A stretch of 35,241 nt of DNA from a virus: positions 1 to 35,241 of IMG/VR virus record IMGVR_UViG_3300023257_000067, one strand, 5' to 3'. The notes beneath the pieces are model-generated. The model ran no database searches, was not told the DNA's origin, and saw only the letters and a list, made by a program, of their open reading frames with translations. Shown here in pieces: positions 2,414 to 28,388 of the stretch (position 1 is the stretch's first letter; each line of letters begins with the position of its first letter). The translations under genes were made by a program, and so were the position numbers.

Positions 2414-2420
2414 TAATTTT

Positions 2421-2495: not shown

Positions 2496-2496
2496 A

Positions 2497-2574: not shown

Positions 2575-2579
2575 TTGTA

Positions 2580-3265: not shown

Positions 3266-3292
3266 ATTATATCCTTTCTTATTATTTATAAC

Positions 3293-3321: not shown

Positions 3322-3595
3322 GATATTCTTTTTTTGTTAAAAGTTCACCATCAATCCACCATTCTACAGCACCATTATTATATTCTACAGCTGGACCATT
3401 TGTACGATGTTGTTTTCCCATCCACCACCATTCTTTATGTTTACTATTATCAGACTCTATTGCTGGACCATCTATACGATGTCTTAAACCATTATACCAC
3501 CATTCTTCAAAACCATCATAAGGTGCATAAAACTGTTTTACTGCTGGACCATCTATACGATGTAACTGACCTTTATCATTTCTATATTCTATCAT
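3299..3595 (-). CDS. HRxDGPAV-repeat protein (copy 2)
   Basis: A 98-residue protein with three repeats: LHRIDGPAV, RHRIDGPAI and QHRTNGPAV, each followed by a Trp-rich strand (EEWWYNG, KEWWWMG, VEWWIDG). Same MORN-like family as copies at 363-674 and 32299-32556. It starts after an AAAGGA site at the end of a leader with an 8-bp hairpin, a leader type shared with copy 3. Its last residues (LDITINL) and stop are encoded by the downstream promoter. Confidence 0.75.
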   Translation of the reverse strand: MIEYRNDKGQLHRIDGPAVKQFYAPYDGFEEWWYNGLRHRIDGPAIESDNSKHKEWWWMGKQHRTNGPAVEYNNGAVEWWIDGELLTKKEYLDITINL

Positions 3596-3624
3596 ATTAT
3601 ATCCTTTGTGTAGAATAAATTTAC

Positions 3625-3661
3625 CCTCTCAGATTTACTGAGAGGTCATTTAAGACGCTTT
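3625..3661 (-). promoter_or_regulatory. Conserved motif plus hairpin (leader module 1)
   Basis: On the minus strand AAAGCGTCTTAAA (3661-3649) is followed by stem CCTCTCAG/CTGAGAGG (3645-3625) with a 5-nt loop. The same motif and a longer version of the hairpin occur at 32582-32624, again just before an HRxDGPAV gene. It may be an attenuator, a processing site or an operator. Confidence 0.55.
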
Positions 3662-3681
3662 CATAGTCAATATATATCATA

Positions 3682-4639: not shown

Positions 4640-4881
4640 CATTAATTCATATATTTCTATATGGAATGGACTATACCATCACTTGAATCATTGATGTAAT
4701 AGCATCTATTCAAGGCTCGCCGTATTATTATTTTTAAATAATCTGTATCCTTACCTATTAATATGATACAAGTCTCTGAACCATTTGAACATGTTTCCAT
4801 GAACTCTGGCTGCTGATTGTCTTATCATTTCTGACTTAGAGTTCCAGCAATTGAGCGAGTTTTACAGGGGCCGATTAATTA
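4640..4881 (-). other. Group I intron in rtcB
   Basis: This 242-nt segment interrupts rtcB between the GTT and GAT codons of AVG-V/D-IGCG. P1 pairs exon GGGGT with intron GCCCC, leaving a U-G pair at the 5' site, and the intron ends in G (4640). Core signatures in order: AATTGCTGGAACTC, AATCAGCAGCC, GGTTCAGAGACTTG (P7 region) and GGTATAGTCC near the end. Removing 4881-4640 restores the frame exactly. There is no ORF inside, so it must depend on another endonuclease for mobility, or be immobile. Likely subgroup IA by its motifs. Confidence 0.88.
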
Positions 4882-5093
4882 ACCCCTACTGCATTTGGCA
4901 CAACAACATCTTTAGTTGCCATAACACCGCCTATAGGCATACCGTATCCTTGATGCGAATCTGGCATTATAGCGATATGTTTAAATGCAAAAGGAAGATT
5001 GGCAAGATTTTTTGCTTGGTCTAAAGCACCATCTTCAATGTCATCCAACCATAATTTTATTGGTATTTTTTCTGTTGATATTACTTTATTCAT
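4882..5093 (-). CDS. rtcB: RtcB RNA ligase, 5' exon
   Basis: The first 70 codons and two bases of the next of rtcB, starting at 5093 behind AAAGGAGAATATT. It contains KHIAIMPDSHQGYGMPIG, the family's first metal-binding motif, and GGV..TKDVVVPNAVGV. Unspliced, the frame reads one Asn and stops at TAA inside the intron (4875-4877), giving a 72-residue dead product. See the 3' exon for function. Confidence 0.92.
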
Positions 5094-5105
5094 AATATTC
5101 TCCTT

Positions 5106-5312
5106 TTATTTCTCTGTTGCCGGTCCACATATTTTAGAATTTAAATCTTCTATTAATGAAAGAACACCTGCTGGTTGTCTGTACCAAAATTCATAATCAA
5201 AATCTTTATATCCGTATTTTTTAGAAATTTTAACAATACGTTTAGTTTTTTCTTTCCAAAAATTTATATTATAATCTACTGGATTTTTATATCTATCTAT
5301 AGTCTTATTCAT
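5106..5312 (-). CDS. Unknown small protein (68 aa)
   Basis: Starts at 5312 (MNKTIDRYKNPVDYNINFWK) behind AAAGGAAAAA. Basic N-terminal half, aromatic centre (YDFEFWY-like: DYEFWYRQPAGV), then a short acidic tail. First gene after the promoter at 5344-5372 and 12 nt before rtcB, so probably co-transcribed with it. Family not recognised. Confidence 0.65.
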   Translation of the reverse strand: MNKTIDRYKNPVDYNINFWKEKTKRIVKISKKYGYKDFDYEFWYRQPAGVLSLIEDLNSKICGPATEK

Positions 5313-5343
5313 TTTTTCCTTTCTTAATATGACCTGTTCTTAT

Positions 5344-5372
5344 AAAGTACTATATATTTTATATCATGTCAA
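5344..5372 (-). promoter_or_regulatory. Early sigma70 promoter
   Basis: TTGACA (5372-5367), 17 nt, TACTTT (5349-5344); here the triplet before the -10 is TAG, not TGA. Drives the gene at 5106-5312 and rtcB. Confidence 0.8.
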
Positions 5373-5378
5373 GATATA

Positions 5379-5756
5379 TTATACAACAACATAATAAGGC
5401 ATACCGCCCGGCAAATGTGGCCACATATAACGTGAAAAGGGGCATTTAACTTTATCACATGCTGTACCGAGTGAAAAAAGTTGATCCATTACAGAATGAA
5501 GCCCTGTCCATTGATTACCATTCATATCATCACAAGCTTTTAAAAAAGACATTCCACCACCACTATCAGATTGAAATTCTTTAGGTAATTGTGAAAGCAT
5601 AGAAGAAATATCTTTTTTATGTGACTCTAATCTCTGTCTATGAAAACTAAAATGACATGTAATACCATCAGCTATAACAGAATCAGAAGTATCTTCATCA
5701 TTTTTAAACAAACAATCCATAAATATCGTATCTACATTTTTTGCTGTAAGCTTCAT
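5379..5756 (-). CDS. Conserved phage/bacterial protein with GGGMSFLKAC motif
   Basis: A 125-residue protein starting LTAKNVDTIFMDCLF and containing HRQRLESHKKDI, GGGMSFLKACDD, NGNQWTGLH, a Cys-containing segment KVKCPFSRYMW and the C-terminus LPGGMPYYVVV. This arrangement is familiar from an unnamed family widespread in phages and prophages. Cys and His residues might bind metal, but no function is known to me. It has its own AAGAAAGGA site and is 13 nt from the phosphoesterase gene. Confidence 0.75.
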   Translation of the reverse strand: MKLTAKNVDTIFMDCLFKNDEDTSDSVIADGITCHFSFHRQRLESHKKDISSMLSQLPKEFQSDSGGGMSFLKACDDMNGNQWTGLHSVMDQLFSLGTACDKVKCPFSRYMWPHLPGGMPYYVVV

Positions 5757-5768
5757 ATTAGTCCTTTC

Positions 5769-6533
5769 TTAAATAGTTATAATCATATCTTTTTTAAATT
5801 CCGGATTTTCTGAATGGTTTTTATACCCTCTTGGATTACATACAACCCTTGTATCATGTATTATATAATCGCATGAATTATGAAGATGTCCATGACACCA
5901 TAGATCAATATTATTTTCTTTTATCATATCTTCTAAATCAATAACAAATGATGCTGTCAATATATCATTTTTATATATTGGCAATGAAGATTTAAGACTT
6001 GGTGCTGTATGTGTTATAACAACAACTTTTTTATTACCTGTATTTTTTAACTCTCGCTTTAAAAAATCTGTTGATTTTTTATTTAAAGTTAATAAATCAT
6101 TTGCATTAATCAATTTTTCTTTATGTCTATCTTCTGTCATAATTTTAATGTAATTATAATCATTCATGGCAATTTCAGAATAATGCATTGCTGTTTCTTG
6201 ATTATCATATAACATAAAATCGGTCCACATGGTACAACCTAAAAATACAGTATCATCAATATCAAGTCTATCATTATCTAAGACTGTAATATTATTAGAT
6301 TTTATTGATCTTTCTTTAAATTCTTTTAATAAATCTGTCATGTTATTATAATAATACTCATGATTGCCTGGTACAAAAATAACTTTTTTATTTTTGAATT
6401 TATTTTCAATCCACTTATATGAAGAAATACCAACACTTATATCACCTGCTAAGATAACTATATCAGAATCAATATATGGTACTTTCATATCACCAAATTC
6501 AGTATGTAAGTCATTTAATATATGTAGATTCAT
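5769..6533 (-). CDS. Calcineurin-like metallophosphoesterase
   Basis: A 254-residue protein with the full set of metal-binding motifs: DLH (residues 8-10), GD (30-31), GNHE (56-59), a THT box in VVVITHTAPS and GHLHN near the C-terminus. Such enzymes hydrolyse phosphomono- or diesters with two metal ions; the substrate here is unknown. Its ATG overlaps the stop of the preceding 31-residue ORF (TAATG), so the two are translationally coupled. Confidence 0.88.
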   Translation of the reverse strand: MNLHILNDLHTEFGDMKVPYIDSDIVILAGDISVGISSYKWIENKFKNKKVIFVPGNHEYYYNNMTDLLKEFKERSIKSNNITVLDNDRLDIDDTVFLGCTMWTDFMLYDNQETAMHYSEIAMNDYNYIKIMTEDRHKEKLINANDLLTLNKKSTDFLKRELKNTGNKKVVVITHTAPSLKSSLPIYKNDILTASFVIDLEDMIKENNIDLWCHGHLHNSCDYIIHDTRVVCNPRGYKNHSENPEFKKDMIITI

Positions 6534-6628
6534 TATTCATCCCAATTATATCCATTTAATTCAGACATTGCTTTTATTTCATCAATTGTTTTTCCCTCAC
6601 CTGTATCACCATATATAATAATATTCAT
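6533..6628 (-). CDS. 31-residue P-loop micro-ORF
   Basis: Begins MNIIIYGDTGEGKTIDEIKA behind AGGAT, and ends at TAATG shared with the phosphoesterase start. GDTGEGKT is a perfect Walker A match directly after a beta strand, the start of a P-loop NTPase fold, but the protein ends 20 residues later. Either a remnant of an ATPase kept as a leader peptide for the downstream gene, or a functional mini-protein. Confidence 0.6.
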   Translation of the reverse strand: MNIIIYGDTGEGKTIDEIKAMSELNGYNWDE

Positions 6629-6656
6629 TTTTATCCTATTTTATATTTAAAAGTTC

Positions 6657-6729
6657 TGGTCTGGGATGTTGGCGTCGAACCAACCTGACCGCACTTCCAG
6701 GGCGCAGTCCGCACCTCGCTGTATCCCAG
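6657..6729 (-). tRNA. tRNA, probably Pro (TGG), C33
   Basis: Acceptor CTGGGAT/ATCCCAG with the C1-G72 pair typical of tRNA-Pro, T arm GTTGG TTCGACG CCAAC, discriminator A, encoded CCA. The anticodon stem is TGCGC/GTGCG with loop CCTGGAA, giving TGG but with C at 33. The D arm is short (16 nt between acceptor and anticodon stem). An offset reading (loop CTGGAAG, GGA) has a poorer stem. Isotype less certain than the gene itself. Confidence 0.7.
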
Positions 6730-6766
6730 ATAATTATATTCATTTTTATCCTTTTAATATTAAGAG

Positions 6767-6808
6767 CTCTGGTGGCAGGACTCGAACCTGCATTCTTCGG
6801 TTTAACAG
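6767..6808 (-). pseudogene. 3' half of a broken tRNA-Asn
   Basis: From the anticodon loop on, this is a normal tRNA-Asn: loop CTGTTAA (GTT), ACCGA, variable AGAAT, T arm GCAGG TTCGAGT CCTGC, acceptor strand CACCAGA and discriminator G. No 5' half precedes it. The complementary acceptor strand TCTGGTG lies 877 nt upstream at 7691-7685. There is no encoded CCA. Confidence 0.75.
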
Positions 6809-6882
6809 ATATTTTTTTTAAAAACGCTTATAATGATATTCTTTGAGTTTGTATTATATATCAATTGTTTCTTCTTTATTTA

Positions 6883-7437
6883 CTAAAGCATTAATTCTTT
6901 TTTTAATTTTAATATTCTTGTTCTTACACAATGATCACTAACATTTAATTCTTTAGCAGTTCCAACATATGTACCATGTTTTTTATATATTTTCATTATA
7001 TCTATTTTATCCCAATCAACATTATATCTAATTTTAGCGCCACAACTTAAAGAACATGTTTTATTAGTTATTAATTTATCTTTACCACATATAGGGCATT
7101 TATCAATCATTATTTTTTTTATTTTATAGTCTACAAAATCTTCATTAAATAATGTTGGATTTTCTGGGATTTCAGCATTATTATAATGAATTAATCTATG
7201 ACAATTAGAACATACCATTATACATTTTCTTAATTCTTTAACTATTCTTTTCCATGATATACAATTTGCTCTAATAGCACCCATAGAAAATAATTTTTCT
7301 TTTGGATTTAAATGATGAAAATCAAAAACTTCTGATGGATATTCTTTTTTACATATACAACATTCATTATTAAATGATTTAACCATTCTTTCTTTTGTAA
7401 TTTTACGCCATTTTTTTACATTTTCCGATTTATTCAT
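6883..7437 (-). CDS. HNH homing endonuclease
   Basis: A 184-residue protein. The N-terminal HNH nuclease has zinc knuckles CCICKK and CSNC around DFHHLNP and CHRLIH. It is followed by a second zinc module (CPICGKDK ... CSLSC) and a C-terminal helix-turn-helix for target recognition (GTYVGTAKELNVSDHCVRTR). Free-standing HNH genes of this build are mobile in T4-like phages. GGAGG before the start is abutted by a 13-bp hairpin. It lies inside the disrupted tRNA-Asn locus. Confidence 0.88.
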   Translation of the reverse strand: MNKSENVKKWRKITKERMVKSFNNECCICKKEYPSEVFDFHHLNPKEKLFSMGAIRANCISWKRIVKELRKCIMVCSNCHRLIHYNNAEIPENPTLFNEDFVDYKIKKIMIDKCPICGKDKLITNKTCSLSCGAKIRYNVDWDKIDIMKIYKKHGTYVGTAKELNVSDHCVRTRILKLKKELML

Positions 7438-7449
7438 TTTCGATCCTCC

Positions 7450-7485
7450 ATATAAATAATTAACTTTCTTTATAATTATTTATAT
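7450..7485 (-). promoter_or_regulatory. Hairpin next to the HNH ribosome site
   Basis: Perfect 13-bp stem (7485-7473 with 7462-7450), 10-nt loop, ending at the base next to GGAGG (7449-7445). Homing endonuclease genes of T4 are often held down by early-transcript hairpins at the ribosome site, so translational control is likely here. Confidence 0.6.
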
Positions 7486-7508
7486 AAAAGTTCGTAAAAT
7501 TATATTTT

Positions 7509-7599
7509 TGGCTCCAGCGGTTGGATTCGAACCAACGGTGAGACATTAAAGTCTGACGGGTTAACAGCCCGTTCCCTGCTGCCGCTCGGGTACACTGGA
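7509..7599 (-). tRNA. Type II tRNA with GTT (Asn) anticodon
   Basis: 91 nt. Acceptor TCCAGTG/CGCTGGA, D arm CCC..GGG with GAGCGGCAGCA loop, anticodon stem ACGGG/CCCGT with loop CTGTTAA (GTT), then a long variable arm with its own stem AGAC/GTCT, T arm TTGG TTCGAAT CCAA, discriminator G, encoded CCA. Long variable arms belong to Ser, Leu and Tyr tRNAs; G73 and the body are Ser-like, yet the anticodon reads Asn codons. The amino acid attached is therefore uncertain. Confidence 0.85.
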
Positions 7600-7619
7600 A
7601 TATTTCTTATTGTTCTTAT

Positions 7620-7648
7620 AAAGTATCATATATAAAATATTATGTCAA
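7620..7648 (-). promoter_or_regulatory. Early sigma70 promoter, extended -10
   Basis: TTGACA (7648-7643), 17 nt, TGA-TACTTT (7625-7620). Reads into the type II tRNA and the HNH gene. It is part of a roughly 50-bp imperfect direct repeat with 7691-7742. Confidence 0.83.
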
Positions 7649-7665
7649 GACTAATTTATAATGTA

Positions 7666-7691
7666 TGCTTAGCCAATTAAGCTACACCAGA
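7666..7691 (-). pseudogene. 5' half of a broken tRNA-Asn
   Basis: Acceptor strand TCTGGTG (7691-7685), then TA and a complete D arm GCTTAATTGGCTAAGC. After A26 the sequence no longer pairs with anything (TACATTATAAATT) and runs into the next promoter. The acceptor strand is exactly complementary to CACCAGA of the 3' half at 6767-6808. Confidence 0.72.
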
Positions 7692-7711
7692 ATATTTCTT
7701 ATTGTTTTTAT

Positions 7712-7740
7712 AAAGTATCATATATTTTGTACTATGTCAA
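7712..7740 (-). promoter_or_regulatory. Early sigma70 promoter, extended -10
   Basis: TTGACA-type -35 (7740-7735), 17 nt, TGA-TACTTT (7717-7712). The original promoter of the now broken tRNA-Asn. Confidence 0.83.
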
Positions 7741-7773
7741 GAACAAAATATTTGTAATAATATTAAATAATTA

Positions 7774-7850
7774 TGGTAGGGGGGGATGCCAGAATCAAAC
7801 TGGCCACACCACGAATCCAAATCGCAGTCGACATCTTGCCATTATCCCCT
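7774..7850 (-). tRNA. tRNA-Pro (TGG) with expanded C tract in acceptor
   Basis: Anticodon stem TGCGA/TCGTG with canonical loop TTTGGAT, T arm GCCAG TTTGATT CTGGC, encoded CCA. The 5' strand AGGGGAT would pair perfectly with ATCCCCT, but the 3' strand has seven C in place of four, so three bases are extra. Either a slippage mutation that damages the acceptor stem or a homopolymer sequencing error. Confidence 0.7.
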
Positions 7851-7860
7851 ATATTTTTTA

Positions 7861-7934
7861 TGGTGGGACCAGAAGGTAACGATCCTTCGTAGATCGGGTA
7901 AGAACCGACTATTCTACCATTGAATTATGATCCC
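7861..7934 (-). tRNA. tRNA-Lys (CTT)
   Basis: Acceptor GGGATCA/TGGTCCC, anticodon stem GTCGG/CCGAT with loop TTCTTAC, T stem GAAGG/CCTTC, encoded CCA. The T loop is ATCGTTA instead of TTCGANT. Confidence 0.87.
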
Positions 7935-7937
7935 TAG

Positions 7938-8011
7938 TGGTGGGTCCAGAAGGTAACGCTCCTTCATCTACTGGTTAAAAGCCAGTTGTTCTGCTATTGA
8001 ACTATGAACCC
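7938..8011 (-). tRNA. tRNA-Lys (TTT)
   Basis: Acceptor GGGTTCA/TGGACCC, anticodon stem ACTGG/CCAGT with loop CTTTTAA, T stem GAAGG/CCTTC with unusual T loop AGCGTTA, encoded CCA. Shares the odd T loop with the neighbouring tRNA-Lys (CTT), suggesting duplication. Confidence 0.9.
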
Positions 8012-8020
8012 ACAAAACAA

Positions 8021-8058
8021 AAAAGGTGAAGATACTTTATATGTATTCTTCACCTTTT
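8021..8058 (-). terminator. Intrinsic terminator
   Basis: Stem AAAAGGTGAAG/CTTCACCTTTT plus ATAC/GTAT with one bulged base, 7-nt loop, followed on the minus strand by TTTTTTGTTTTG. It lies between the 25-residue ORF and the Lys tRNAs. No promoter follows, so the tRNAs may come from readthrough. Confidence 0.75.
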
Positions 8059-8085
8059 AATATTAGTATATTTTATATTAAATGA

Positions 8086-8163
8086 TTAGAATACAGTTGC
8101 TCCTTGTGGTATAAGTACCTTGTGTTTAAATATATTATTATTCGGTTTTAATATTTTCATCAT
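8086..8163 (-). CDS. Possible 25-residue peptide
   Basis: MMKILKPNNNIFKHKVLIPQ, ending GATVF. The ribosome site is weak (AGAGA). The hydrophobic C-terminus and placement between a gene and a terminator make a real short gene plausible, but there is little else to support it. Confidence 0.4.
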   Translation of the reverse strand: MMKILKPNNNIFKHKVLIPQGATVF

Positions 8164-8184
8164 TTTTTTATTCTCTCAATCTAT

Positions 8185-8418
8185 TTATATTTTATCATTT
8201 GTTTTTAAAATAATATCTTCAATATTAATTAATTTCATATTAACATGTTTCTGTATCCATTCATTACCTGTTAATTGTTTAGGCATGTTATTTTGAATAT
8301 ATTTATCATCATAATAACAATCATGTTTTATTGAATCAGATATTTGCTGAATCATAAAATCTTTTAATTTTATATGGTCTGATGTTGGTGGTTGCCATTC
8401 ATTTGCTTTTTTAAGCAT
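8185..8418 (-). CDS. Unknown protein (77 aa or slightly longer)
   Basis: The frame is open from 8670, but its upstream part crosses a tRNA gene and another gene, so I start it at the first Met after the tRNA (MLKKANEWQPPTSDHIKLKD). A TTG at 8439 (LLIKYQY) is an alternative. Mostly helical, with a C-terminal segment NEWIQKHVNMKL. Family not recognised. Confidence 0.5.
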   Translation of the reverse strand: MLKKANEWQPPTSDHIKLKDFMIQQISDSIKHDCYYDDKYIQNNMPKQLTGNEWIQKHVNMKLINIEDIILKTNDKI

Positions 8419-8475
8419 ATACTGATATTTAATAAGCAAATCTTTATTCTTTTTTATTCTTTCTTTTGTTGTTAA

Positions 8476-8548
8476 TGGATGCGGAGGGCGGAATCGGACC
8501 GCCGTATTATGGCTTATGAAACCAAATGGTTTTCCAAAACTCTCCGCA
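8476..8548 (-). tRNA. tRNA with CAT anticodon (Met or Ile2)
   Basis: Acceptor TGCGGAG/CTCCGCA, T arm GGCGG TCCGATT CCGCC, discriminator T, encoded CCA, anticodon loop TTCATAA. The D arm GTTTTGGAAAAC leaves a very small loop. Lacks the C1xA72 mismatch of initiators; could be elongator Met or a lysidine-modified Ile tRNA. Confidence 0.75.
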
Positions 8549-8551
8549 TTA

Positions 8552-8737
8552 TCACCATCCAATAGCTTTTGAAATCTCTGGTGTAAATCCACCAAGCTCA
8601 TTAAATCTTTTTTCAAATACTCTATAAAACGGTTTTGTTTTATCAAAATATGGATGACCTGATGGAGCAAATCTCCATAAAGAAGCCATTTGCATTTGAG
8701 TCATATTGTTTATTGTTTCTATTTCTTTATCGGTCAT
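8552..8737 (-). CDS. Conserved small phage protein (MASLWRFAPSGHPYF)
   Basis: A 61-residue protein with the conserved core QMASLWRFAPSGHPYFD and the C-terminus GGFTPEISKAIGW, a set seen in many unnamed phage and prophage ORFs. Starts at 8737 behind AAAGGATATT. Its stop lies 4 nt from the 5' end of the CAT tRNA. Function unknown. Confidence 0.75.
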   Translation of the reverse strand: MTDKEIETINNMTQMQMASLWRFAPSGHPYFDKTKPFYRVFEKRFNELGGFTPEISKAIGW

Positions 8738-8757
8738 AATATCCTTTTAATAATTTA

Positions 8758-8831
8758 TGGTAGGGATAAAAGAAATCGAATCTTTATTACAGCGTTATCG
8801 GCACTGTGTTCTACCATTGAACTATATCCCC
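8758..8831 (-). tRNA. tRNA-Ile (GAT), C33
   Basis: Acceptor GGGGATA/TATCCCT, D arm GTTCAATGGTAGAAC, anticodon stem CAGTG/CGCTG with loop CCGATAA, T loop TTCGATT, encoded CCA. As in tRNA-Ile (TAT), base 33 is C. Confidence 0.83.
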
Positions 8832-8835
8832 TCAT

Positions 8836-9141
8836 TTAAGCTAATTCTGGATCATTTACTATATCGTATTTAGGACATTTTATATTTTTATTAATTATAA
8901 TATAATCGTTATTAGATATTTTGTCAAATGTTTTATTTCTTAATTTATTATCATCAAATGTCCATTCTTCATCACAACCTTTAAATTGTATTGTTGGTTT
9001 ATCTTCATTAGAAGGCAACCATTTATATCTTTCTTTACTAATAGAAACACATAAATTAATATTAACAGGATTATTATATATTTTATCTCCATTAATATCC
9101 TGTACCCATGAAATAGGAGGTCTAATAAAATTACTGTTCAT
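8836..9141 (-). CDS. Unknown protein (101 aa)
   Basis: Starts MNSNFIRPPISWVQDINGDK, overlapping the stop of the upstream gene in another frame (AATGAACAGTAA). Contains a Trp/Lys strand region (RYKWLPSNEDKPTIQFKG, then CDEEWTFDD) and a Lys/Asn-rich end. No family recognised; its tight coupling to the 9131-9499 gene suggests a shared role. Confidence 0.65.
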   Translation of the reverse strand: MNSNFIRPPISWVQDINGDKIYNNPVNINLCVSISKERYKWLPSNEDKPTIQFKGCDEEWTFDDNKLRNKTFDKISNNDYIIINKNIKCPKYDIVNDPELA

Positions 9142-9499
9142 TTTTATCCTCTATTATGTTAAATTTATTTTTAGCTTCTTCTAATGCTTGAATAAATCCT
9201 GTTATATGCTCTTTATCATTAAATAATATATCAGCCTGCATTTCAAGATAACCGCCAAATATTAATACAATACCATCTCTTAATCGTTCCCAAATTCTTT
9301 TATACCAAGAACTTGCATTATAATAATTGTTCCAATATAATTTCTTTTCAATCATCATAGTAATATCATTTATTTCTCTATCATATTCTAACCATAACGT
9401 AAAATCATGATCTTGATCACCACATGCACACGCTATTCTATAAAATATAGTATCATGGTATTCATCCATTTTCATTACTTTATAAGATAATTTATTCAT
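9131..9499 (-). CDS. Conserved protein with CACGDQDHDFTLWLEYD core
   Basis: A 122-residue protein, started at 9499 (MNKLSYKVMKMDEYHDTIFY); the longer frame to 9634 overlaps a real gene. The signature FYRIACACGDQDHDF, WLEYDREI, a Trp-rich middle (SSWYKRIWERLRDG) and a C-terminal helix with ITGFIQALEEAK are typical of a widespread unnamed phage/bacterial family. A cysteine/histidine pair may bind metal. Function unknown. Confidence 0.72.
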   Translation of the reverse strand: MNKLSYKVMKMDEYHDTIFYRIACACGDQDHDFTLWLEYDREINDITMMIEKKLYWNNYYNASSWYKRIWERLRDGIVLIFGGYLEMQADILFNDKEHITGFIQALEEAKNKFNIIEDKNEQ

Positions 9500-9500
9500 T

Positions 9501-9665
9501 TTAATCTTTAACCTTTTTATTATAAAATTTTTTTCTTTTTTTCTTTTTTTCTTTTTGCACAATAGTATAATATTCATAACATTTAACATATTCACCACCA
9601 TGAGTTTCTCTGCAAATACCTTCACATTTACCATTATCTACTGAACACAATTCTTTTATTTCCAT
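9501..9665 (-). CDS. Small Cys- and Lys-rich protein (54 aa)
   Basis: ATG at 9665 behind AAAGGAGAATA. Starts MEIKELCSVDNGKCEGICRE, with four Cys in the first 30 residues, then an almost pure Lys/Arg tract and the end YNKKVKD. The stop is one base before the start of the 9131-9499 gene, so they are coupled. A metal-binding knuckle with a nucleic-acid-binding tail is likely, by composition only. Confidence 0.65.
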   Translation of the reverse strand: MEIKELCSVDNGKCEGICRETHGGEYVKCYEYYTIVQKEKKKKRKKFYNKKVKD

Positions 9666-9674
9666 TATTCTCCT

Positions 9675-10040
9675 TTATACAATTATTAAATTATCCGATC
9701 CATATTTATATCTATAATATTTTTTTATTGTATCTTCAGTACCGCCTGTTCTATCTGGTGAAACGCATGCTATTAATATATCTGACATTTTTGCTATATC
9801 AGTATTTCTTTTATACCCTGCTGATATTCCATTTTTAGTCCACAGAGCAGGATACCATATAGTTTTGGTGTTATATTGTTCTGATAATATCACAGCAAAT
9901 CTATCAGCACCTTTAGAACATAATCCAGAACATATAGTATCACCTTTTTGATAAACTTTTAGAAAAGCATTTTTAACACTTTCAAATGATATACTATCAT
10001 CTCTTTTTCTTGATCCAACAATACCAATTACTTTAGACAT
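9675..10040 (-). CDS. SLOG/DprA-like nucleotide-binding protein
   Basis: A 121-residue Rossmann-type protein with the marks of the DUF2493/SLOG group: IGIVGSRKR at the N-terminus, ICSGLCSKGADRFA in the middle, YKRNTDIAKMSDILIAC and SPDRTGGTEDTI. Relatives bind nucleotides or nucleic acid; in phages they are unnamed and sometimes linked to nucleotide signalling. It follows a decayed small ORF and the promoter at 10151-10179. Confidence 0.75.
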   Translation of the reverse strand: MSKVIGIVGSRKRDDSISFESVKNAFLKVYQKGDTICSGLCSKGADRFAVILSEQYNTKTIWYPALWTKNGISAGYKRNTDIAKMSDILIACVSPDRTGGTEDTIKKYYRYKYGSDNLIIV

Positions 10041-10042
10041 TT

Positions 10043-10143
10043 TTTTATTTATCCTTTTTGGTTGCGGTGCAGCAGGCGATATAGGTTTACGTTTTAAATT
10101 CTTTTTGTTCTAATGCAATATTCCTTTGTATGACCACCCTCAT
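10043..10143 (-). pseudogene. Decayed small gene before the SLOG gene
   Basis: Between promoter and SLOG start three frames each carry protein-like stretches: MRVVIQRNIALEQKEFKT, GGHTKEYCIRTKRI and LKRKPISPAAPQPKRINKK, the last in frame with the SLOG ATG. This fits one short gene with frameshifts. GGH..C recalls the small Cys/Lys protein at 9501-9665. Confidence 0.3.
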
Positions 10144-10150
10144 TGTTTAT

Positions 10151-10179
10151 AAGGTATCATAAAAATTATATCATGTCAA
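10151..10179 (-). promoter_or_regulatory. Early sigma70 promoter, extended -10
   Basis: TTGACA (10179-10174), 17 nt, TGA-TACCTT (10156-10151). Drives the SLOG gene and those after it. Confidence 0.8.
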
Positions 10180-10195
10180 GATAAAAATAAGATTT

Positions 10196-10269
10196 TGGAG
10201 CTGAGTATGAGAATTGAACTCATATCATGTGATTGGCAACCACATATACTACCATTGTACTAACCCAGC
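10196..10269 (-). tRNA. tRNA-Gly (GCC)
   Basis: Acceptor GCTGGGT/ACTCAGC, anticodon stem TGTGG/TCACA with loop TTGCCAA, T arm ATGAG TTCAATT CTCAT, discriminator T as in Gly tRNAs, encoded CCA. Confidence 0.92.
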
Positions 10270-10270
10270 A

Positions 10271-10342
10271 TGGTGGCATGTCAGGGTATCGAGCCCTGCA
10301 TTCCTCAGATATGAACCGAAAATGGTGCCCAGACCCCATGCC
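10271..10342 (-). tRNA. tRNA-Met (CAT)
   Basis: Acceptor GGCATG/CATGCC (6 bp, then G-A), anticodon stem TTCGG/CTGAG with loop TTCATAT, T arm CAGGG CTCGATA CCCTG, discriminator A, encoded CCA. The D arm GGT CTGGGC ACC is short. Second CAT tRNA of the window; one of the two may be the AUA-reading Ile type. Confidence 0.8.
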
Positions 10343-10346
10343 ATAA

Positions 10347-10553
10347 TTAACTTTTTTTCTTTTTTATCACCTTATTTTTATCACCATATATAACCCATCC
10401 TAAAAGAAAAGCAAATGGACCAATACAAGATATAATAATAGCTAATATTCTATTTTTTGATGTAAAATCAAACTCTTTTGTCCACCAATAAACAAAACTT
10501 TGATATCCAGATGCAAACCATAAAAATACTAATAAAAAAAATAAAAATAACAT
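10347..10553 (-). CDS. Small phage membrane protein (68 aa)
   Basis: Starts MLFLFFLLVFLWFASGYQSF behind AAAGGAGATAAT. Two membrane helices flank the polar segment YWWTKEFDFTSKNR; the second (IIISCIGPFAFLLGWVIYGD) ends in a Lys-rich tail. The FASGYQSF and WTKEFDFT elements are familiar from unnamed phage membrane ORFs. Inner-membrane location likely. Confidence 0.72.
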   Translation of the reverse strand: MLFLFFLLVFLWFASGYQSFVYWWTKEFDFTSKNRILAIIISCIGPFAFLLGWVIYGDKNKVIKKKKS

Positions 10554-10569
10554 ATTATCTCCTTTCTTT

Positions 10570-10598
10570 AATATACTATAAAATTTATATTATGTCAA
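10570..10598 (-). promoter_or_regulatory. Sigma70 promoter
   Basis: TTGACA (10598-10593), 17 nt, TATATT (10575-10570). Drives the membrane protein gene at 10347-10553 and the Met and Gly tRNAs. Confidence 0.75.
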
Positions 10599-10609
10599 TA
10601 AATATTTTT

Positions 10610-10687
10610 TGGAACCCCTGATGGGACTCGAACCCACATTAAATCTCGCTTTAGAAGAACGATGCCAATCCATTCGGCTACAGGGGC
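10610..10687 (-). tRNA. tRNA-Arg (TCT)
   Basis: Acceptor GCCCCTG/CAGGGGT (G-T at pair 1), anticodon stem TCGTT/AGCGA with loop CTTCTAA, T arm GTGGG TTCGAGT CCCAT, encoded CCA. Reads AGA, a common Arg codon in these genes. Overlaps the 3' end of the upstream CDS by 10 nt. Confidence 0.9.
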
Positions 10688-10893
10688 TTAATACTTTGAT
10701 TAAAAATATCTTTAAGTGCATCTATTGCTTTTGTTGTAATCATATAAGTTGTTTTTTTACCATCTATATATCCTATAATAGATATTATAACAGCACATCC
10801 TGATATATATAATATGTTCAATAATGAAAGATCACATAATATACAGTTTATTAATATTGATGTTAATAGTAAAGAAATTATTATTTTATACAT
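10678..10893 (-). CDS. Small membrane protein (71 aa)
   Basis: Starts MYKIIISLLLTSILINCILC behind AAAGGATAAAA. Two hydrophobic helices (residues 1-20 and 25-45), then GYIDGKKTTYM and an amphipathic C-terminal helix. The stop codon TAG is bases 8-10 of the tRNA-Arg gene, the same arrangement as at tRNA-Ala. Function unknown. Confidence 0.65.
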   Translation of the reverse strand: MYKIIISLLLTSILINCILCDLSLLNILYISGCAVIISIIGYIDGKKTTYMITTKAIDALKDIFNQSIKPL

Positions 10894-10905
10894 TTTTATC
10901 CTTTA

Positions 10906-10991
10906 TGGAGGTAGGGATGGGATTTGAACCCATAGGGCTATTACACCCGACTGATTAGCAATCAGCTCCGATACCATTCTGGCACCCTACC
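10906..10991 (-). tRNA. tRNA-Ser (GCT)
   Basis: Type II. Acceptor GGTAGGG/CCCTACC, anticodon stem GCTGA/TCAGT with loop TTGCTAA, long variable arm GGGTGTAATAGCCC, T arm ATGGG TTCAAAT CCCAT, encoded CCA. The discriminator is T rather than the G usual for Ser. Confidence 0.9.
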
Positions 10992-10994
10992 ATA

Positions 10995-11288
10995 TTATTT
11001 TATTTGACCTATAACACTATCACCTTTAAGACCAACAGGCTCATATATTGAAAATCCTAAAAAATAAACAGGTGCAACAATAGACTCACTAAATATAATA
11101 CTTAATACTATATTACCTGTAATTAATTCATATTGAATATCAGAGTTCTTTTTATCTGATTTATTAATTAAGCCGTAAGTATCATATTCTATACCATTAA
11201 TTACTTTGGTATCACCACATCCTGTAATAGATAAGAATGTACACACAAACATTAAGCATACTACAAATAATATAATTTTTTTAAACAT
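10995..11288 (-). CDS. Phage lipoprotein
   Basis: A 97-residue protein with a signal peptide (KK then 16 hydrophobic residues) and a lipobox SITGC at residues 20-24, so a membrane-anchored lipoprotein is expected. The mature part CGDTKVINGIEYDTYGLINK and a C-terminal hydrophobic segment (IIFSESIVAPVYFLGFSIYE) match an unnamed lipoprotein family seen in phages and Gram-negative bacteria. Good site AAAGGAGAATAAG. Confidence 0.78.
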   Translation of the reverse strand: MFKKIILFVVCLMFVCTFLSITGCGDTKVINGIEYDTYGLINKSDKKNSDIQYELITGNIVLSIIFSESIVAPVYFLGFSIYEPVGLKGDSVIGQIK

Positions 11289-11311
11289 CTTATTCTCCTT
11301 TTAATTTTAAA

Positions 11312-11385
11312 TGGCGGATTGCCAAGGAATTGAACCCTGATCATCTGGATTGGAGTCAGATATACTACCATTGTACTAACAATCC
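11312..11385 (-). tRNA. tRNA-Trp (CCA)
   Basis: Acceptor GGATTGT/GCAATCC, anticodon loop CTCCAAT (stem TCTG/CAGA with an A-C mismatch next to the loop), T loop TTCAATT, discriminator G as in tRNA-Trp, encoded CCA. Confidence 0.88.
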
Positions 11386-11388
11386 ATG

Positions 11389-11476
11389 TGGTGGGAATGG
11401 AAGGAATCAAACCTTCTTGATCGCTAAGGATACGAGATTTACAATCTCGCCAATCTTCATAACTGTCTACACTCCC
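11389..11476 (-). tRNA. tRNA-Tyr (GTA)
   Basis: Type II. Acceptor GGGAGTG/CATTCCC, anticodon stem CGAGA/TCTCG with loop TTGTAAA, long variable arm, T arm GAAGG TTTGATT CCTTC, discriminator A, encoded CCA. Confidence 0.92.
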
Positions 11477-11481
11477 AAATT

Positions 11482-11664
11482 TTATTTTCTAACTTTTGTC
11501 CATTGTGGAACACTATATCCTATAAGTATCTGTTTTTCATATCCATTCTCAAATGCTGCTTTATTAATTTTTAAAGTAACATTTGAAACCATAAAAGTTA
11601 AAACGCATATGCCAAATATTATATAAAATATTGTATAAGTCCAAAATCTATCATGTGAATCCAT
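11482..11664 (-). CDS. Small membrane-anchored protein (60 aa)
   Basis: Starts MDSHDRFWTYTIFYIIFGIC, one membrane helix (residues 8-27), then KAAFENGYEKQ and the end YSVPQWTKVRK. The FENGY..Q...W.K tail is typical of an unnamed single-helix family in phages and bacteria. Begins after AAAAAAGGAAAA; just 5 nt upstream of tRNA-Tyr. Confidence 0.68.
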   Translation of the reverse strand: MDSHDRFWTYTIFYIIFGICVLTFMVSNVTLKINKAAFENGYEKQILIGYSVPQWTKVRK

Positions 11665-11697
11665 TTTATTTTTCCTTTTTTATTTTATTTTATTTAT

Positions 11698-11726
11698 ACT
11701 TTATACTTTATATTATATAATGTCAA
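11698..11726 (-). promoter_or_regulatory. Sigma70 promoter
   Basis: TTGACA (11726-11721), 17 nt, TAAAGT (11703-11698). Weaker -10 than its relatives. Precedes the gene at 11482-11664 and the Tyr/Trp tRNAs. Confidence 0.65.
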
Positions 11727-11744
11727 CATAAATATTTTTATTTT

Positions 11745-11819
11745 TGGAGCCAGCAGAGTGGAATCGAACCCTCATTAAATGCTTACAAAACATTTTTATT
11801 ACCATTATAAGATACCGGC
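11745..11819 (-). tRNA. tRNA-Thr (TGT)
   Basis: Acceptor GCCGGTA/TGCTGGC, anticodon stem AATGT/GCATT with loop TTTGTAA, T loop TTCGATT, encoded CCA. Reads ACA. Short run to the promoter at 11830-11858. Confidence 0.9.
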
Positions 11820-23280: not shown

Positions 23281-24153
23281 TCAAAAAAATAAATTCAAAT
23301 TAGACTTGTTGACAGAATTCAACAAGTCTTTTTTATTCATAGGATCTAATAATATCTCAATCTTGGCTGTGAAATATTTTTTAATCATCTTATCATAATC
23401 TATCTGAACAATTTCATTAAATTCTTTTGGCCATCTTAAAAAAGAAACACTTTCAAAACCAAATGCATTTTTCTTTACATAAATTATTTTAGCTTTACTC
23501 TTATTATGTATATCCTCATATTTATCAACTATATCCAGATGCTTAAGCATTTCTCTGTAATTATAAACACCTTTAACATGCCAAGGTGTACCCTTTCTAG
23601 GACCAGTAGGTGATATATATTTATTGATATTATTAACACTTGTATTGACAGATATTTCTTCTGGATATACCTCTTTTAATTCTTTCTTATATCTTTCTAT
23701 AATATTTATTAATTCATCATCAGATGTATCTTTTAAAATAAGATTCATTATATTTTTAAGTCTTGGTCTTACTGCTTCTGGTGTCTCTGATCTAATAATT
23801 TCAAGTCCTGTTGTTTTGAGTTTATCTACCGGCGCCCCTTCTTCATCAACACACCAAAATGAATATTTCTTCTTTTTAACAAATAATGTTGACTTAGCTA
23901 CAATTTCTTGCTTAAATGTAATTCTAAAATCAGTTACATTAGAGTTATAGCATTTTCTTTGTATTTCTCTATAAGATCTTGAATCAACATTATCTTCTAT
24001 TACAGAAGATATTTTTCTAATATAATCAATAATTTTTTCTTCATCTAAAGATCTCCATTTGTCTCCTATATGCTTATCAAGAAACGATCCGAGATTAATA
24101 AAAAGTGAATCAGTGTCAACTCCGTCAAATGTAGAGGATGTAATCCTGTACAT
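23281..24153 (-). CDS. Family B DNA polymerase, C-terminal part (gp43B-like)
   Basis: 290 residues as an ORF. It opens with the catalytic motif C, GVDTDSLF, and continues like the palm/thumb of T4 gp43: KQEIVAKSTLFVKKKKYSFW, KTTGLEIIRSETPEAVRPRL, SPTGPRKGTPWHVKGVYNYR, FGFESVSFLRWP. The ATG at 24153 lies in a hairpin and is out of frame with the better start at 24181 (MTRGNKSVEDVQDYILYI then TGA), whose end YILYI is what should precede the DTDS motif. A +1 shift at ATT-TGA-C would join them. Partner of 24399-26165. Confidence 0.85.
   Translation of the reverse strand: MYRITSSTFDGVDTDSLFINLGSFLDKHIGDKWRSLDEEKIIDYIRKISSVIEDNVDSRSYREIQRKCYNSNVTDFRITFKQEIVAKSTLFVKKKKYSFWCVDEEGAPVDKLKTTGLEIIRSETPEAVRPRLKNIMNLILKDTSDDELINIIERYKKELKEVYPEEISVNTSVNNINKYISPTGPRKGTPWHVKGVYNYREMLKHLDIVDKYEDIHNKSKAKIIYVKKNAFGFESVSFLRWPKEFNEIVQIDYDKMIKKYFTAKIEILLDPMNKKDLLNSVNKSNLNLFF
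23302..23335 (+). terminator. Intrinsic terminator of the packaging operon
   Basis: Stem AGACTTGTTG/CAACAAGTCT, 8-nt loop, then TTTTTT. It ends plus-strand transcription but is located inside the last codons of the opposing polymerase gene. Confidence 0.85.
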
Positions 24154-24181
24154 CCTCTACACTCTTATTACCTCTTGTCAT
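24125..24181 (-). CDS. Alternative N-terminus of the polymerase C-part
   Basis: ATG at 24181 behind AAGGATAAATAAT reads MTRGNKSVEDVQDYILYI and stops at TGA (24125-24127). Skipping one base there enters the polymerase frame as ..YI-DGVDTDS. A perfect 12-bp inverted repeat (24131-24160) lies in this coding stretch, just before the stop. Likely the true start of the C-part if frameshifting or a repair of the frame occurs. Confidence 0.55.
   Translation of the reverse strand: MTRGNKSVEDVQDYILYI
24131..24160 (-). repeat. Perfect 12-bp hairpin at the polymerase frame break
   Basis: GTAGAGGATGTA and TACATCCTCTAC with a 6-nt loop. It contains the ATG at 24153 and ends a few bases before the TGA where the frame changes. 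Confidence 0.7.
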
Positions 24182-24194
24182 ATTATTTATCCTT

Positions 24195-24397
24195 TTATAA
24201 TTTAAATTCTTTTTTAATAGTTTTTAACCATTCTATATCTGTTAAAGTTTCGATATCAGTTATTCTTTATCTTTATATATTATATCATGTTTCTCAAAAA
24301 TACTAATCAATTCTCTTTTAACACTTTCTTTAAATACCTCCTGTATATGCATTTCAAAAAAATACCAAACATCATTTATTAATTGTTTATTTTTCAA
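24195..24397 (-). pseudogene. Small ORF between polymerase parts, frame broken
   Basis: TTG at 24397 (behind GGAGAGTTATAA) reads MKNKQLINDVWYFFEMHIQE and KHDIIYKDKE, stopping at 24260. The next frame continues ITDIETLTDIEWLKTIKKEF to a stop at 24195. One shift gives a protein of about 68 residues. It separates the two polymerase genes; family not recognised. Confidence 0.45.
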
Positions 24398-24398
24398 A

Positions 24399-26165
24399 TT
24401 ATAACTCTCCTTTAATTTTATTAATTATATCAATTAGTTCTTGACTTGGTTCATTAAGCAATTCATTTACAAATCGTTCACCATTTTTAATGGTCTGACG
24501 ACCACATGATGTAATGGCTTCTGCAATATTTATGTTAAAATATCTACTATAAGGTACTGACATTATACCAAAAAATCCATTTAATACTAATTTTAAAGCT
24601 AATTGTAATGAATGATATTGCTTAATTTTATCCTTAGTATTTTTTAAATCATTATCTCTTAAAACTGGTAATGATTTTTTCATTTTAATCATTTTCTTTT
24701 TAACTTTAATTCTTTTCTTAAATACTGTTTTTTCAACATCAGCTACTACTCCCATTTTACTATTTGAAAAAACAGATCCACATGGGGCAACTGATAACAA
24801 ACGGTTTTTAATAGCTTTATTGAATATTTCAAGACTTTTATTTTTAAAGTCTATTATTTTAGAGCCTTTCATTAAGTTAAAAGATGGGTAACATTTTGTT
24901 TTAGTAAAAGTCATAATTTCATTTTCTGTAAATCCTAACACCCTACCATAATATGTTTCAGGTGACATATTTAATGTTATTATAGCTGTAGGATAAGACG
25001 ATGCTATATCAAGATCAACAACCCACATATGTTTACCCTTCTGTGGTTCTTTAACATATGCCGCCTCAAATCCTTCTTGAACACCGCCAGTAAAATGAGG
25101 AGCACATAACCCTCTCCTTCTATAATATGTGAGCATTAACCCTTCTATTAACTGTGTTAATGTTCTATAATTCTTCATAGGTGATTTACATAATAAAGAT
25201 AGGGTCTGAACAAGATTAATATACTTTAATTTATCATCTATTTGATGTACTCTATAAGCATCTATAATATTATAATCAACATATTTTTCCCAATTGTTAT
25301 TATAAAGACCTCTTAAATCTTCATATTCAGAGTAATCAAGTTTACCAACACCGAGTTCAAAATTTGAAACAAAATCAAGACTATATCTTTCAAGTCTATT
25401 AGGTGAATACCATTTATATAAATCAATATAATCAAGTATAGATACACCAGCTATATCAACATTCATGTCTTTACCATCTTTTGACATCCATGTTTTTACA
25501 ATACTTATAGGTGATAATTTTTTATATATTGCAGTATCATTACCAAATAAGTTTTTTGACCTATTGATAATATATGGTATATCAAATCCATTTATATACC
25601 AGCCACTTATAGTATCACATGGACTTTTTGACATAAAATTAAAAAATGACATTAACAACATTTTATCATTTTTACATTCTATATAATTAATAAAATCAAC
25701 ATTTTTATATTTACCGTTATATGGTTTAGTACCAAATGTGGTGGTTATACCCGTTATATTATTATGGACAGATATAAGTGTTATAGGGTCATCAGCATTA
25801 TTTATATCTGGAAATTTACCACTATCACTATGAGTTTCAATATCAATAACATAATTTTTAAGTTTTGGCACATCCATCAATTCATCGTCTATACCATAAT
25901 ACCTTTCAGCTAAAAATTGTATCTCAGGACGTACTCTATCTTCATATAAATCTTTTTGATCTTTACATGCACTATAGTAATCAGAATATGATTTAAATTC
26001 TATTTTCTTAGCATTAAATCCATCTGTTGTTTTAAAGTCACCATCTTTTTTTCTTTTAAAAGCATACGGTACATATGGTATGTTAGTATAAAGATTTTCA
26101 CCTTTTAATTGTTCCCACAAATGTATTGTATTAGTATTTATTGAATAATAAACATTCTTAAACAT
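24399..26165 (-). CDS. Family B DNA polymerase, N-terminal part (gp43A-like)
   Basis: 588 residues. 3'-5' exonuclease with VIDIETHSD (DIE at 108-110), a second motif around DTISGWYINGFDIPYI and third YNIIDAYRVHQID. Then polymerase motif A WVVDLDIASSYPTAI and motif B LKLVLNGFFGIMS. It ends NGERFVNELLNEPSQELIDI.., shortly before where motif C should be; that motif is in 23281-24153. Split gene 43 is known in some T4-like phages. The two parts would have to assemble into one enzyme. Confidence 0.92.
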   Translation of the reverse strand: MFKNVYYSINTNTIHLWEQLKGENLYTNIPYVPYAFKRKKDGDFKTTDGFNAKKIEFKSYSDYYSACKDQKDLYEDRVRPEIQFLAERYYGIDDELMDVPKLKNYVIDIETHSDSGKFPDINNADDPITLISVHNNITGITTTFGTKPYNGKYKNVDFINYIECKNDKMLLMSFFNFMSKSPCDTISGWYINGFDIPYIINRSKNLFGNDTAIYKKLSPISIVKTWMSKDGKDMNVDIAGVSILDYIDLYKWYSPNRLERYSLDFVSNFELGVGKLDYSEYEDLRGLYNNNWEKYVDYNIIDAYRVHQIDDKLKYINLVQTLSLLCKSPMKNYRTLTQLIEGLMLTYYRRRGLCAPHFTGGVQEGFEAAYVKEPQKGKHMWVVDLDIASSYPTAIITLNMSPETYYGRVLGFTENEIMTFTKTKCYPSFNLMKGSKIIDFKNKSLEIFNKAIKNRLLSVAPCGSVFSNSKMGVVADVEKTVFKKRIKVKKKMIKMKKSLPVLRDNDLKNTKDKIKQYHSLQLALKLVLNGFFGIMSVPYSRYFNINIAEAITSCGRQTIKNGERFVNELLNEPSQELIDIINKIKGEL

Positions 26166-27275: not shown

Positions 27276-28388
27276 TTATCTACCAACATCTTTTAAATAT
27301 ATTTCCTTTGCTTTATCCCATGATATGCCAATCATATCATCATAAAACAAAATATCTTTGTTCTGTCTATTAGTTTTAATAACATTTTCTATTCTTTTTT
27401 TAGCATATCGTTCTTTCCACAATTCTGTTAATGATTCAACAGAGTTATCAAATTTTCTTTCACCCGGATTATCAACTTTTTTACTTAAAAATTTATTAGT
27501 ATCATTAAATAATCCACAAAAATAAACCCCTCTTGAAAAATTATTAATAGGTGGTTTAACTTTCAATTGCTTATAAACAAATTGTAATAATCTTGTTTTA
27601 GGATGACTTTTAGTTTGTAATTCTTTAACTTGTTTTAAATAATTTTTGTTTATCCATTTTCTAATTTCTTTATATACATTATCTGATGGTTCTAATGGAA
27701 TTTTACCTTCTGTTGATTTGCATTTTCTCCAATATTTTAATCTGTTATATTGAGATAGACCACCGTAAATACTTGTTGTACTTATACTTACAAGTTTATC
27801 ACCATATCGTTTATCCCATGCATTTTCAACAACATTAGATGCTGTTAATAATGCTATTAATTTACCACCGACATAATTATATCCTAATGGTTGTGTTGGT
27901 ACTATAGATGAACCCATTGCAGTATGCTTTAACATTTTTTCTTCAAGTCTTTGCTTTATAGTCCAACCAATATAATTATCTCTGCCACCTAAAGAAATAA
28001 AATCAGAACCTACAGATATAACACCTAAATATTTTTTAGTTATTTTATCTTGAATATAAAATCTAAGAAGTCTTCCAGGACTTGCATTCCAATACAAGGT
28101 AGATGAAAATATTCTTAATATTGTCCATATCTTATTAGTTATTGGTGTAGATGCTTGTATAACCTCTGGTTCTAATTTAAGATAATCATCATAATTTTCT
28201 GGAATCCATAAAGAATTTTTTATTTCCCATATTTTATTTAAATCTTTATTAGACCATTTCTTTAAATTAATTTCTTCCCATTTACGATAAAGTGTATATT
28301 CTTCAACAGGCATCATAGACATTTTTTTAAAATTTTCTTCTATTAAATTTTTCATATTATCATATTTCATCTTCAGATAATTTTTCAT
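27276..28388 (-). CDS. DUF4338/DruA-like protein
   Basis: 370 residues. The centre has the block TLYWNASPGRLLRFYIQD, LGVISVGSDFISLGGRDNYI-GW, MGSSIVPTQPLGYNYVGGKL-IALL and TTSIYGGLSQYNRLKYWRKC. This order (RD.xIGW, then PT......GGKL) is that of DUF4338 proteins, which occur in large phages and, as DruA, in the Druantia defence system. The activity in phages is unknown to me. Its start overlaps the end of the 28360-28611 gene. Confidence 0.62.
   Translation of the reverse strand: MKNYLKMKYDNMKNLIEENFKKMSMMPVEEYTLYRKWEEINLKKWSNKDLNKIWEIKNSLWIPENYDDYLKLEPEVIQASTPITNKIWTILRIFSSTLYWNASPGRLLRFYIQDKITKKYLGVISVGSDFISLGGRDNYIGWTIKQRLEEKMLKHTAMGSSIVPTQPLGYNYVGGKLIALLTASNVVENAWDKRYGDKLVSISTTSIYGGLSQYNRLKYWRKCKSTEGKIPLEPSDNVYKEIRKWINKNYLKQVKELQTKSHPKTRLLQFVYKQLKVKPPINNFSRGVYFCGLFNDTNKFLSKKVDNPGERKFDNSVESLTELWKERYAKKRIENVIKTNRQNKDILFYDDMIGISWDKAKEIYLKDVGR

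Follow-up and report, generated by a model that had tools for sequence, protein, structure and literature searches.

A putative short-range translational bypass element at motif C of a split family-B DNA polymerase gene in uncultured phages

The split polymerase gene and its interrupted junction

The stretch under analysis, hereafter the window, comprises 35,241 nucleotides of viral DNA and carries on its minus strand a family-B DNA polymerase (PolB) gene in two pieces, an N-part (26165-24399) and a C-part opening with an ATG at 24181. The N-part (24399..26165, 588 aa) comprises the exonuclease together with motifs A and B, and ends directly past motif B at a point identical to that of the split relative L005. 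It matches PF03104 (exonuclease, 4.5e-20), PF00136 (polymerase, 8.1e-19) and phrog_262 (2.3e-120), in agreement with an earlier note on this DNA, which had described a split DNA polymerase whose N-part ends after motif B. The ATG of the C-part is led by a Shine-Dalgarno sequence (AAAAGGA, 24190..24196, minus strand), and similar purine-rich sequences lie 5' of the ATG in the element-bearing relatives described below. From this ATG a first ORF, MTRGNKSVEDVQDYILYI (24128..24181, minus strand), is read, the last six residues of which correspond, by family comparison, to the strand preceding DTDS in the PolB family. A second ORF of 278 aa (23281..24117, minus strand) contains motif C (DTDS), the remaining palm and the thumb, and matches phrog_262 at positions 578-837 (1.5e-47); its frame opens 3' of a TAG, holds an alternative ATG (24151..24153, minus strand) and extends to 23281. 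The two halves of the polymerase are thus encoded by separate ORFs, and each half carries conserved domains of its own.

Between the halves, a 45-aa ORF with a TTG start can be read from the sequence (24260..24397, minus strand), which is probably the decayed remnant of an inserted ORF. The relative L114 has at this place a 111-aa ORF of unassigned function (2132-2464, phrog_28377), and the 45-aa ORF may be a decayed relic of an ORF of that type. Among cultured phages no close relative of the window's PolB was found, the best matches being at ~34% identity, and a scan of bacterial and archaeal genomes pointed to no clear host, its three relatives being a weak one and two that share one archaeal MAG bin and may lie on phage contigs. 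The window also contains a match to DruA of Druantia adjoining the polymerase (27276-28388, minus strand; PF14236, 2.3e-21), a tmRNA (2580-2932, minus strand; tag ADDYNYALAA) and, within 687-11819, 18 tRNAs that include tRNA-Ile with GAT (anticodon GAU) and with TAT.

At the junction of the two C-part ORFs, the putative take-off codon ATT (Ile, 24128..24130, minus strand) is immediately followed by the stop TGA (24125..24127, minus strand), with which begins the 10-nt stretch that we propose to be bypassed, TGACGGAGTT (24118..24127, minus strand); this is missing from 84 uninterrupted relatives and ends in a candidate landing triplet, GTT (24120-24118). Colinear homologues read ..D-x-[VI]-x-Y-[IG]-DTDS at the same place, so that relative to them the window has 10 extra nucleotides and its DGVDTDSLF lies in the +1 frame with respect to the ORF of MTRGNKSVEDVQDYILYI. 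This is as the earlier note had it, for the start at ATG 24181, the ..DYILYI followed by TGA and the DGVDTDSLF in +1 are all present on the minus strand. The 10-nt insertion with a TTGAC repeat that it had proposed stands in respect to the 10 nucleotides in excess of the relatives, but not in respect to the direct repeat TTGAC..TTGAC, whose period is 9 and not 10. It had also considered a read error, and relatives devoid of the extra bases do exist (84); yet the arrangement is shared by the locus L001, identical to the window, and by L002/L003 from two other samples, which shows that the interruption is not a sequencing error. For the window's own lineage, a search with the pattern ACATCCTCTACATN{0,14}TGACACTGATTCACTT brought up no version lacking the insert.

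A hairpin, a stop and a short gap in ten lineages

The take-off codon is the end of a hairpin (24128..24163, minus strand) with a 15-bp stem (24163-24149 with 24142-24128), a 6-nt loop and a folding energy of -21.3 kcal/mol. The perfect 12-bp hairpin that had been noticed immediately upstream is present, the inverted repeat GTAGAGGATGTA/TACATCCTCTAC pairing perfectly over 12 bp and over 15 bp once the last codon, ATT, takes part, so that the 3' arm contains the take-off codon; the alternative ATG at 24153 lies within the 5' arm. Over 6.7 kb, 16 mismatches separate two strains of the window's phage; two of these fall in the hairpin (one turning A.U into G.U, one in the loop), and both are neutral to pairing.

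Related sequences, confirmed by tblastn and taken from viral contigs, provided 96 unique loci with readable junctions. The junction is uninterrupted in 84 of these, mostly as D-x-[VI]-x-Y-[IGMVCAS]-DTDS, and these comprise 60 loci that are colinear with the N-part and 24 that are split and element-free, in which the C-part starts a few codons before the strand (for example MEKDFVAYIDTDS in L005). In the colinear relative L006 the junction reads YIDTDS, which aligns with YGDTDS of RB69 gp43. A comparison with related split sequences, as proposed in the earlier note, thus sets ten lineages with the element beside 24 split relatives without it. Indeed, at least ten divergent lineages, the window included, share one layout: a leader of 17-26 codons, the strand D-x-[VI]-x-Y-[IS], a stop, a gap of 7-11 nt and DTDS. 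Since this layout recurs in ten lineages, the arrangement in the window is not due to chance, and several of the elements were recovered in assemblies of two or more samples (L001/L002/L003 for the window's lineage, L120 and L128 for L114, L021 and L087 for L017).

The take-off codon is ATT in eight of the ten lineages, ATA in one and TCC in one, and the stop is TGA in nine and TAG in one. Counting the gap from the stop codon, inclusive, up to the codon at which reading would resume, an ATT is separated from a GAC by TGACGGAGTT in the window (10 nt), TGACGATT in L114 (8 nt) and TGAAGGAGTT in L097 (10 nt), and from a GAT by TGAGTGGCTT in L014 (10 nt), TGAAGATA in L121 (8 nt), TGACGGAAGTT in L119 (11 nt), TAGAGAAGATC in L210 (11 nt) and TGACAGATT in L211 (9 nt); in L017 TGAATTT (7 nt) stands between TCC and GAT, and in L187 TGAAATA (7 nt) stands between ATA and GAC. 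Divided by three, the gap lengths leave 1 in five lineages, 2 in four and 0 in one. In all ten, frame 0 ends within the strand that abuts DTDS in uninterrupted relatives, with an Asp at position -6, and skipping the gap joins this conserved strand straight to DTDS, matching the 84 uninterrupted relatives. By this comparison, the two disjoint ORFs would encode consecutive parts of one protein, adjacent in 84 relatives and 7-11 nt apart in ten lineages.

Across the ten lineages the hairpin has 11-16 bp and energies of -16 to -23 kcal/mol, and the boundary of the stem coincides exactly with the take-off codon, whose three nucleotides close the 3' arm in most cases. Two-sided changes affect 8 of the 15 pairs, with 24 compensatory cells and 97% of the cells paired, a level reached by none of 500 shuffles, and pairing amounts to 31-56% when the arms are slid. 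In the 3' arm the sequence is constrained by its coding of xVxYI, and the 5' arm keeps pace through compensatory changes. Equally placed stems in the 84 uninterrupted relatives span 2-7 bp in most cases and never exceed 9 bp, with the exception of L209 (13 bp). A covariance model matches the window at 24125-24166 with 59.5 bits and L209, which is outside the training set, with 31.9 bits. This gap-less relative retains a relic hairpin and encodes MKKGDKDISNKDYIAYI-DTDS colinearly; judged by its sequence, it is a natural version of the predicted bypass product.

When run over 747 kb, the RNA model detected no clear element in genes other than PolB. Likewise, among the matches listed in a search of viral contigs for a hairpin followed by ATTTGA, a stem of at least 10 bp together with a rejoinable ORF occurred in PolB elements only, a further match (L347) having an 11-bp stem and no evident rejoinable ORF. 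Rfam gave no family above cut-off at the junction.

Bypassing and the alternative readings

We consider that programmed short-range translational bypassing, driven by the refolding of the hairpin in a PolB gene putatively split by a homing endonuclease, is probably the best explanation for these sequences. According to this proposal, a split of the homing-endonuclease type would have divided the PolB gene 5' of motif C, and translation of the C-part would begin at ATG 24181 and, after 18 codons, bring ATT into the P site and TGA into the A site. The hairpin, unwound during translation, would then refold behind the ribosome, pulling the mRNA and releasing the Ile-tRNA from ATT, and the ribosome would slide some 10 nt forward until this tRNA pairs again, with GTT in the window and with ATT, ATC or ATA elsewhere. 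Decoding would restart at GAC, yielding ..DYILYI-DTDSLFI.., that is the family sequence, and the resulting 296-aa C-part would assemble with the 588-aa N-part. Because the stem abuts the P-site codon, we infer that its lower ~10 pairs form only as the ribosome advances roughly as far as the gap is long.

The gap, its recurrence, the conservation of both flanking frames and the covariation of the hairpin are observed directly, and it is from these that we infer the hop of the ribosome over the gap, for which the refolding hairpin would be the driver. As gap lengths of all three residues modulo 3 occur, no fixed frameshift can serve all ten lineages, and the strand can be connected to DTDS in every one of them solely by skipping a variable number of nucleotides, which favours bypassing. 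The residue preceding DTDS would then be Ile in nine lineages and Ser in one, both of which occur in the 84 uninterrupted relatives, whereas other readings place Val, Leu or Phe there in some lineages, and Leu or Phe (two lineages) are found in none of the 84. The recoding event at ATT-TGA, with the hairpin as a part of it, that the earlier note had proposed is in line with the same layout in ten lineages and with the strong covariation. However, neither of its two alternatives, programmed +1 frameshifting or a damaged gene, fits, as all cases are explained by a hop of 7-11 nt that re-creates the family sequence exactly.

Landing codons were also inspected. The landing codon is identical to the take-off codon in L114, L211 and L187 and is read by the same tRNA in L210, while the two codons differ in seven lineages, the window among them, which speaks against bypassing, and wobble is often needed there for pairing; such pairing with the take-off tRNA is full with wobble in the window, L119, L097 and L017, and limited to two of three pairs in L014 and L121, so that, wobble counted, the triplet is pairable in eight of the ten lineages. 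Nevertheless, a pairable triplet stands at the landing site in 45 of the 84 uninterrupted relatives, so that ancestry accounts in part for the pairability, which, with the ancestral codon taken into account, is not significant and is not counted here. A landing-codon statistic (7/10) was accordingly dropped as support, its null having ignored the ancestral codon.

Counting against bypassing is the fact that five of the ten gaps, that of the window included, are on their own compatible with +1 shifting. Programmed +1 frameshifting at ATT-TGA-C, as in RF2, would produce DYILYI-DGV-DTDS from the window, whose gap of 10 nt leaves 1 modulo 3, and L017 has TCC-TGA, which is the antizyme shift site. 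We nevertheless regard this reading as unlikely, since gaps of 8, 9 or 11 nt are found in the other five lineages and the shift would add two to three residues, one of them always acidic, between the strand and the catalytic Asp (DGV in the window), which is seen in 0 of the 84 uninterrupted relatives. Moreover, there is no stimulatory Shine-Dalgarno sequence 3 nt 5' of the shift codon, the sequence at that place being CATCCTCTAC. Frameshifting as the mechanism shared by the lineages, which was the first alternative of the earlier note, is thus contradicted by gaps that range from 7 to 11 nt with all residues modulo 3. In respect to stop readthrough, its frame fits L211 only.

It is improbable that the leader ORF simply ends at TGA, with the C-part being made by internal initiation or reinitiation at ATG 24153 in the window or at the TTG of TTGA in L114, L119 and L121. 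A canonical start (ATG, GTG or TTG) in the DTDS frame is indeed present in eight of the ten lineages, but L210 and L211 have none, and the starts vary in kind and place, being inside the hairpin or at the stop; ATG 24153 has no conserved equivalent. The product would furthermore lack the strand, the codons of which stay conserved in the 0 frame.

A damaged gene, in a phage that relies on another polymerase or is a relic, appears very improbable, even though the window's own phage is represented by partial records only. The element occurs in ten lineages and in several samples with a covarying hairpin, and the C-parts have dN/dS of 0.10-0.32 (0.10 for the window against L114), synonymous sites being near saturation in some pairs; by this sequence measure they are under purifying selection. 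The second alternative of the earlier note, a damaged gene now served by ATG 24153, is disfavoured by these values and by the conservation of the upstream 0-frame strand in all lineages. In agreement, neither PolA nor PolIII alpha was found in two records with the element (189 and 204 kb, possibly incomplete), in which the two pieces of a single PolB are the sole polymerase found. In the records G002 (L210) and G003 (L206), the N- and C-halves lie ~5 kb apart with unrelated genes between them.

Removal of the gap from the RNA by splicing or processing is highly improbable: group I introns do occur in gene 43 of T4-like phages (PMC2993671), but an insert of 7-11 nt beside a simple hairpin is far below any known self-splicing intron, and no Rfam family reached the cut-off here.

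Comparison with known systems and spread of the element

To our knowledge, efficient bypassing has essentially one well-studied natural example in bacteria and phages, T4 gene 60. In this gene, split by an endonuclease, a stop follows the take-off codon, and the bypassed insert may protect from cleavage (PMC5009743); a 5' stem-loop acts as a motor, refolding behind the ribosome so as to pull the mRNA and block backward motion, and gaps below 56 nt are crossed at 99% processivity per nucleotide (PMC5009743; PMC11194080). The PolB element has in common with gene 60 and its mobA a split probably related to homing endonucleases, a short untranslated insert near the 5' end of the downstream fragment, a stop directly after the take-off codon and a 5' stem-loop able to refold behind the ribosome (PMC5009743; PMC3014915; PMC11194080). 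On the other hand, gene 60 encodes a topoisomerase and its gap has 50 nt, against 7-11 nt in PolB, a 5-7-fold shorter hop, and gene 60 bypassing is described as apparently unique among T4-related phages whereas the PolB element is found in ten lineages. Also unlike gene 60, the upstream hairpin of the PolB element terminates in the take-off codon, and take-off and landing codons are often not identical. There is no take-off hairpin within the gap, which is too short for one, and this also counts against bypassing, as does the leader of 17-26 codons, too short for a nascent-peptide signal like the KKYK of gene 60. An in-gap stem-loop and a nascent-peptide signal ~30 aa before take-off are features of gene 60 and not of bypassing generally, but their absence means that the PolB element shares only part of what characterizes the gene 60 type. 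With this limit, the view that the element would work like gene 60 is well supported by the sequence comparison.

Other systems are similar in part. The gp43 of Aeromonas phages 25 and 44RR (43A/43B) is likewise a PolB made as two proteins, with an endonuclease gene or untranslated sequence between them, and the two parts from phage 25 co-purify and are active, but no bypass element is reported in the text consulted (PMC2988022). RF2-type +1 frameshifting shares an NNN-TGA site with the stop in the A site, and differs in that the PolB gaps are in all frames, with no Shine-Dalgarno sequence 3 nt upstream and with a hairpin directly upstream. The byp elements of Magnusiomyces capitatus mitochondria are also short bypassed inserts with take-off and landing codons that do not always match (PMC5009743); they are, however, mitochondrial and apparently independent of mRNA context at 81 sites, while the PolB element occupies one gene with a constant hairpin and stop.

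A review has noted that counterparts of gene 60 bypassing were long presumed, perhaps over shorter distances (PMC5009743), and we found no earlier report of such an element in the open-access literature searched. On the sequences at hand, the PolB element seems to represent a new family of ribosome bypassing, a rare phenomenon. If true, it would be the first widespread and recurrent phage bypassing system, in a minimal form of one hairpin, one stop and a gap of ten nucleotides, and would illustrate how bypassing has been enlisted repeatedly so that an essential gene can tolerate inserts, the enzyme surviving while the insert breaks the endonuclease target. Differing in hairpin, gap, stop and landing codon, the ten diverged variants would provide a ready-made mutational series on how the ribosome leaves the message and finds it again. 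Gene callers will annotate a truncated C-part at such loci.

In L141 and L119 the two halves are separated by homing endonuclease ORFs (phrog_559, 6.9e-68 and 7.5e-52, with phrog_3339 also matched) and an endonuclease ORF is also present in L190 (GIY-YIG), while L206 has only a 60-aa tail with a weak match and the window has none or a decayed one. By analogy, the insert may persist because it protects the motif-C site from the homing endonuclease. The tree of C-parts requires 9 gains or losses of the element, each imposed by well-supported branches, versus 10.5 with shuffled labels, a count that takes in the doubtful L190. Between distant lineages the element can be much more alike than the coding sequence (91% versus 59% identity for L119 and L211, 88% versus 58% for L114 and L119), which fits lateral movement, strong constraint or both. 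We lean towards a mobile family of short bypass cassettes (hairpin, stop and insert of 7-11 nt) at PolB motif C of uncultured phages, which would break the endonuclease target while ribosomes hop.

In L190 (3450-3510), the split PolB with the GIY-YIG endonuclease has a 2-nt offset, ATATAGAT, before DTDS and a weak hairpin, possibly reflecting a +2 slip from ATA to ATA, an assembly error or another route. A related PolB in L159 (696-4334) has an intein inside motif C (..YGD|S...HN|TDS..); this intein in DTDS, the simple splits and the homing endonuclease ORFs together indicate that the site before motif C is a hotspot. In L054 and L198, a tRNA-like sequence, as read by eye, lies directly 5' of the split C-part.
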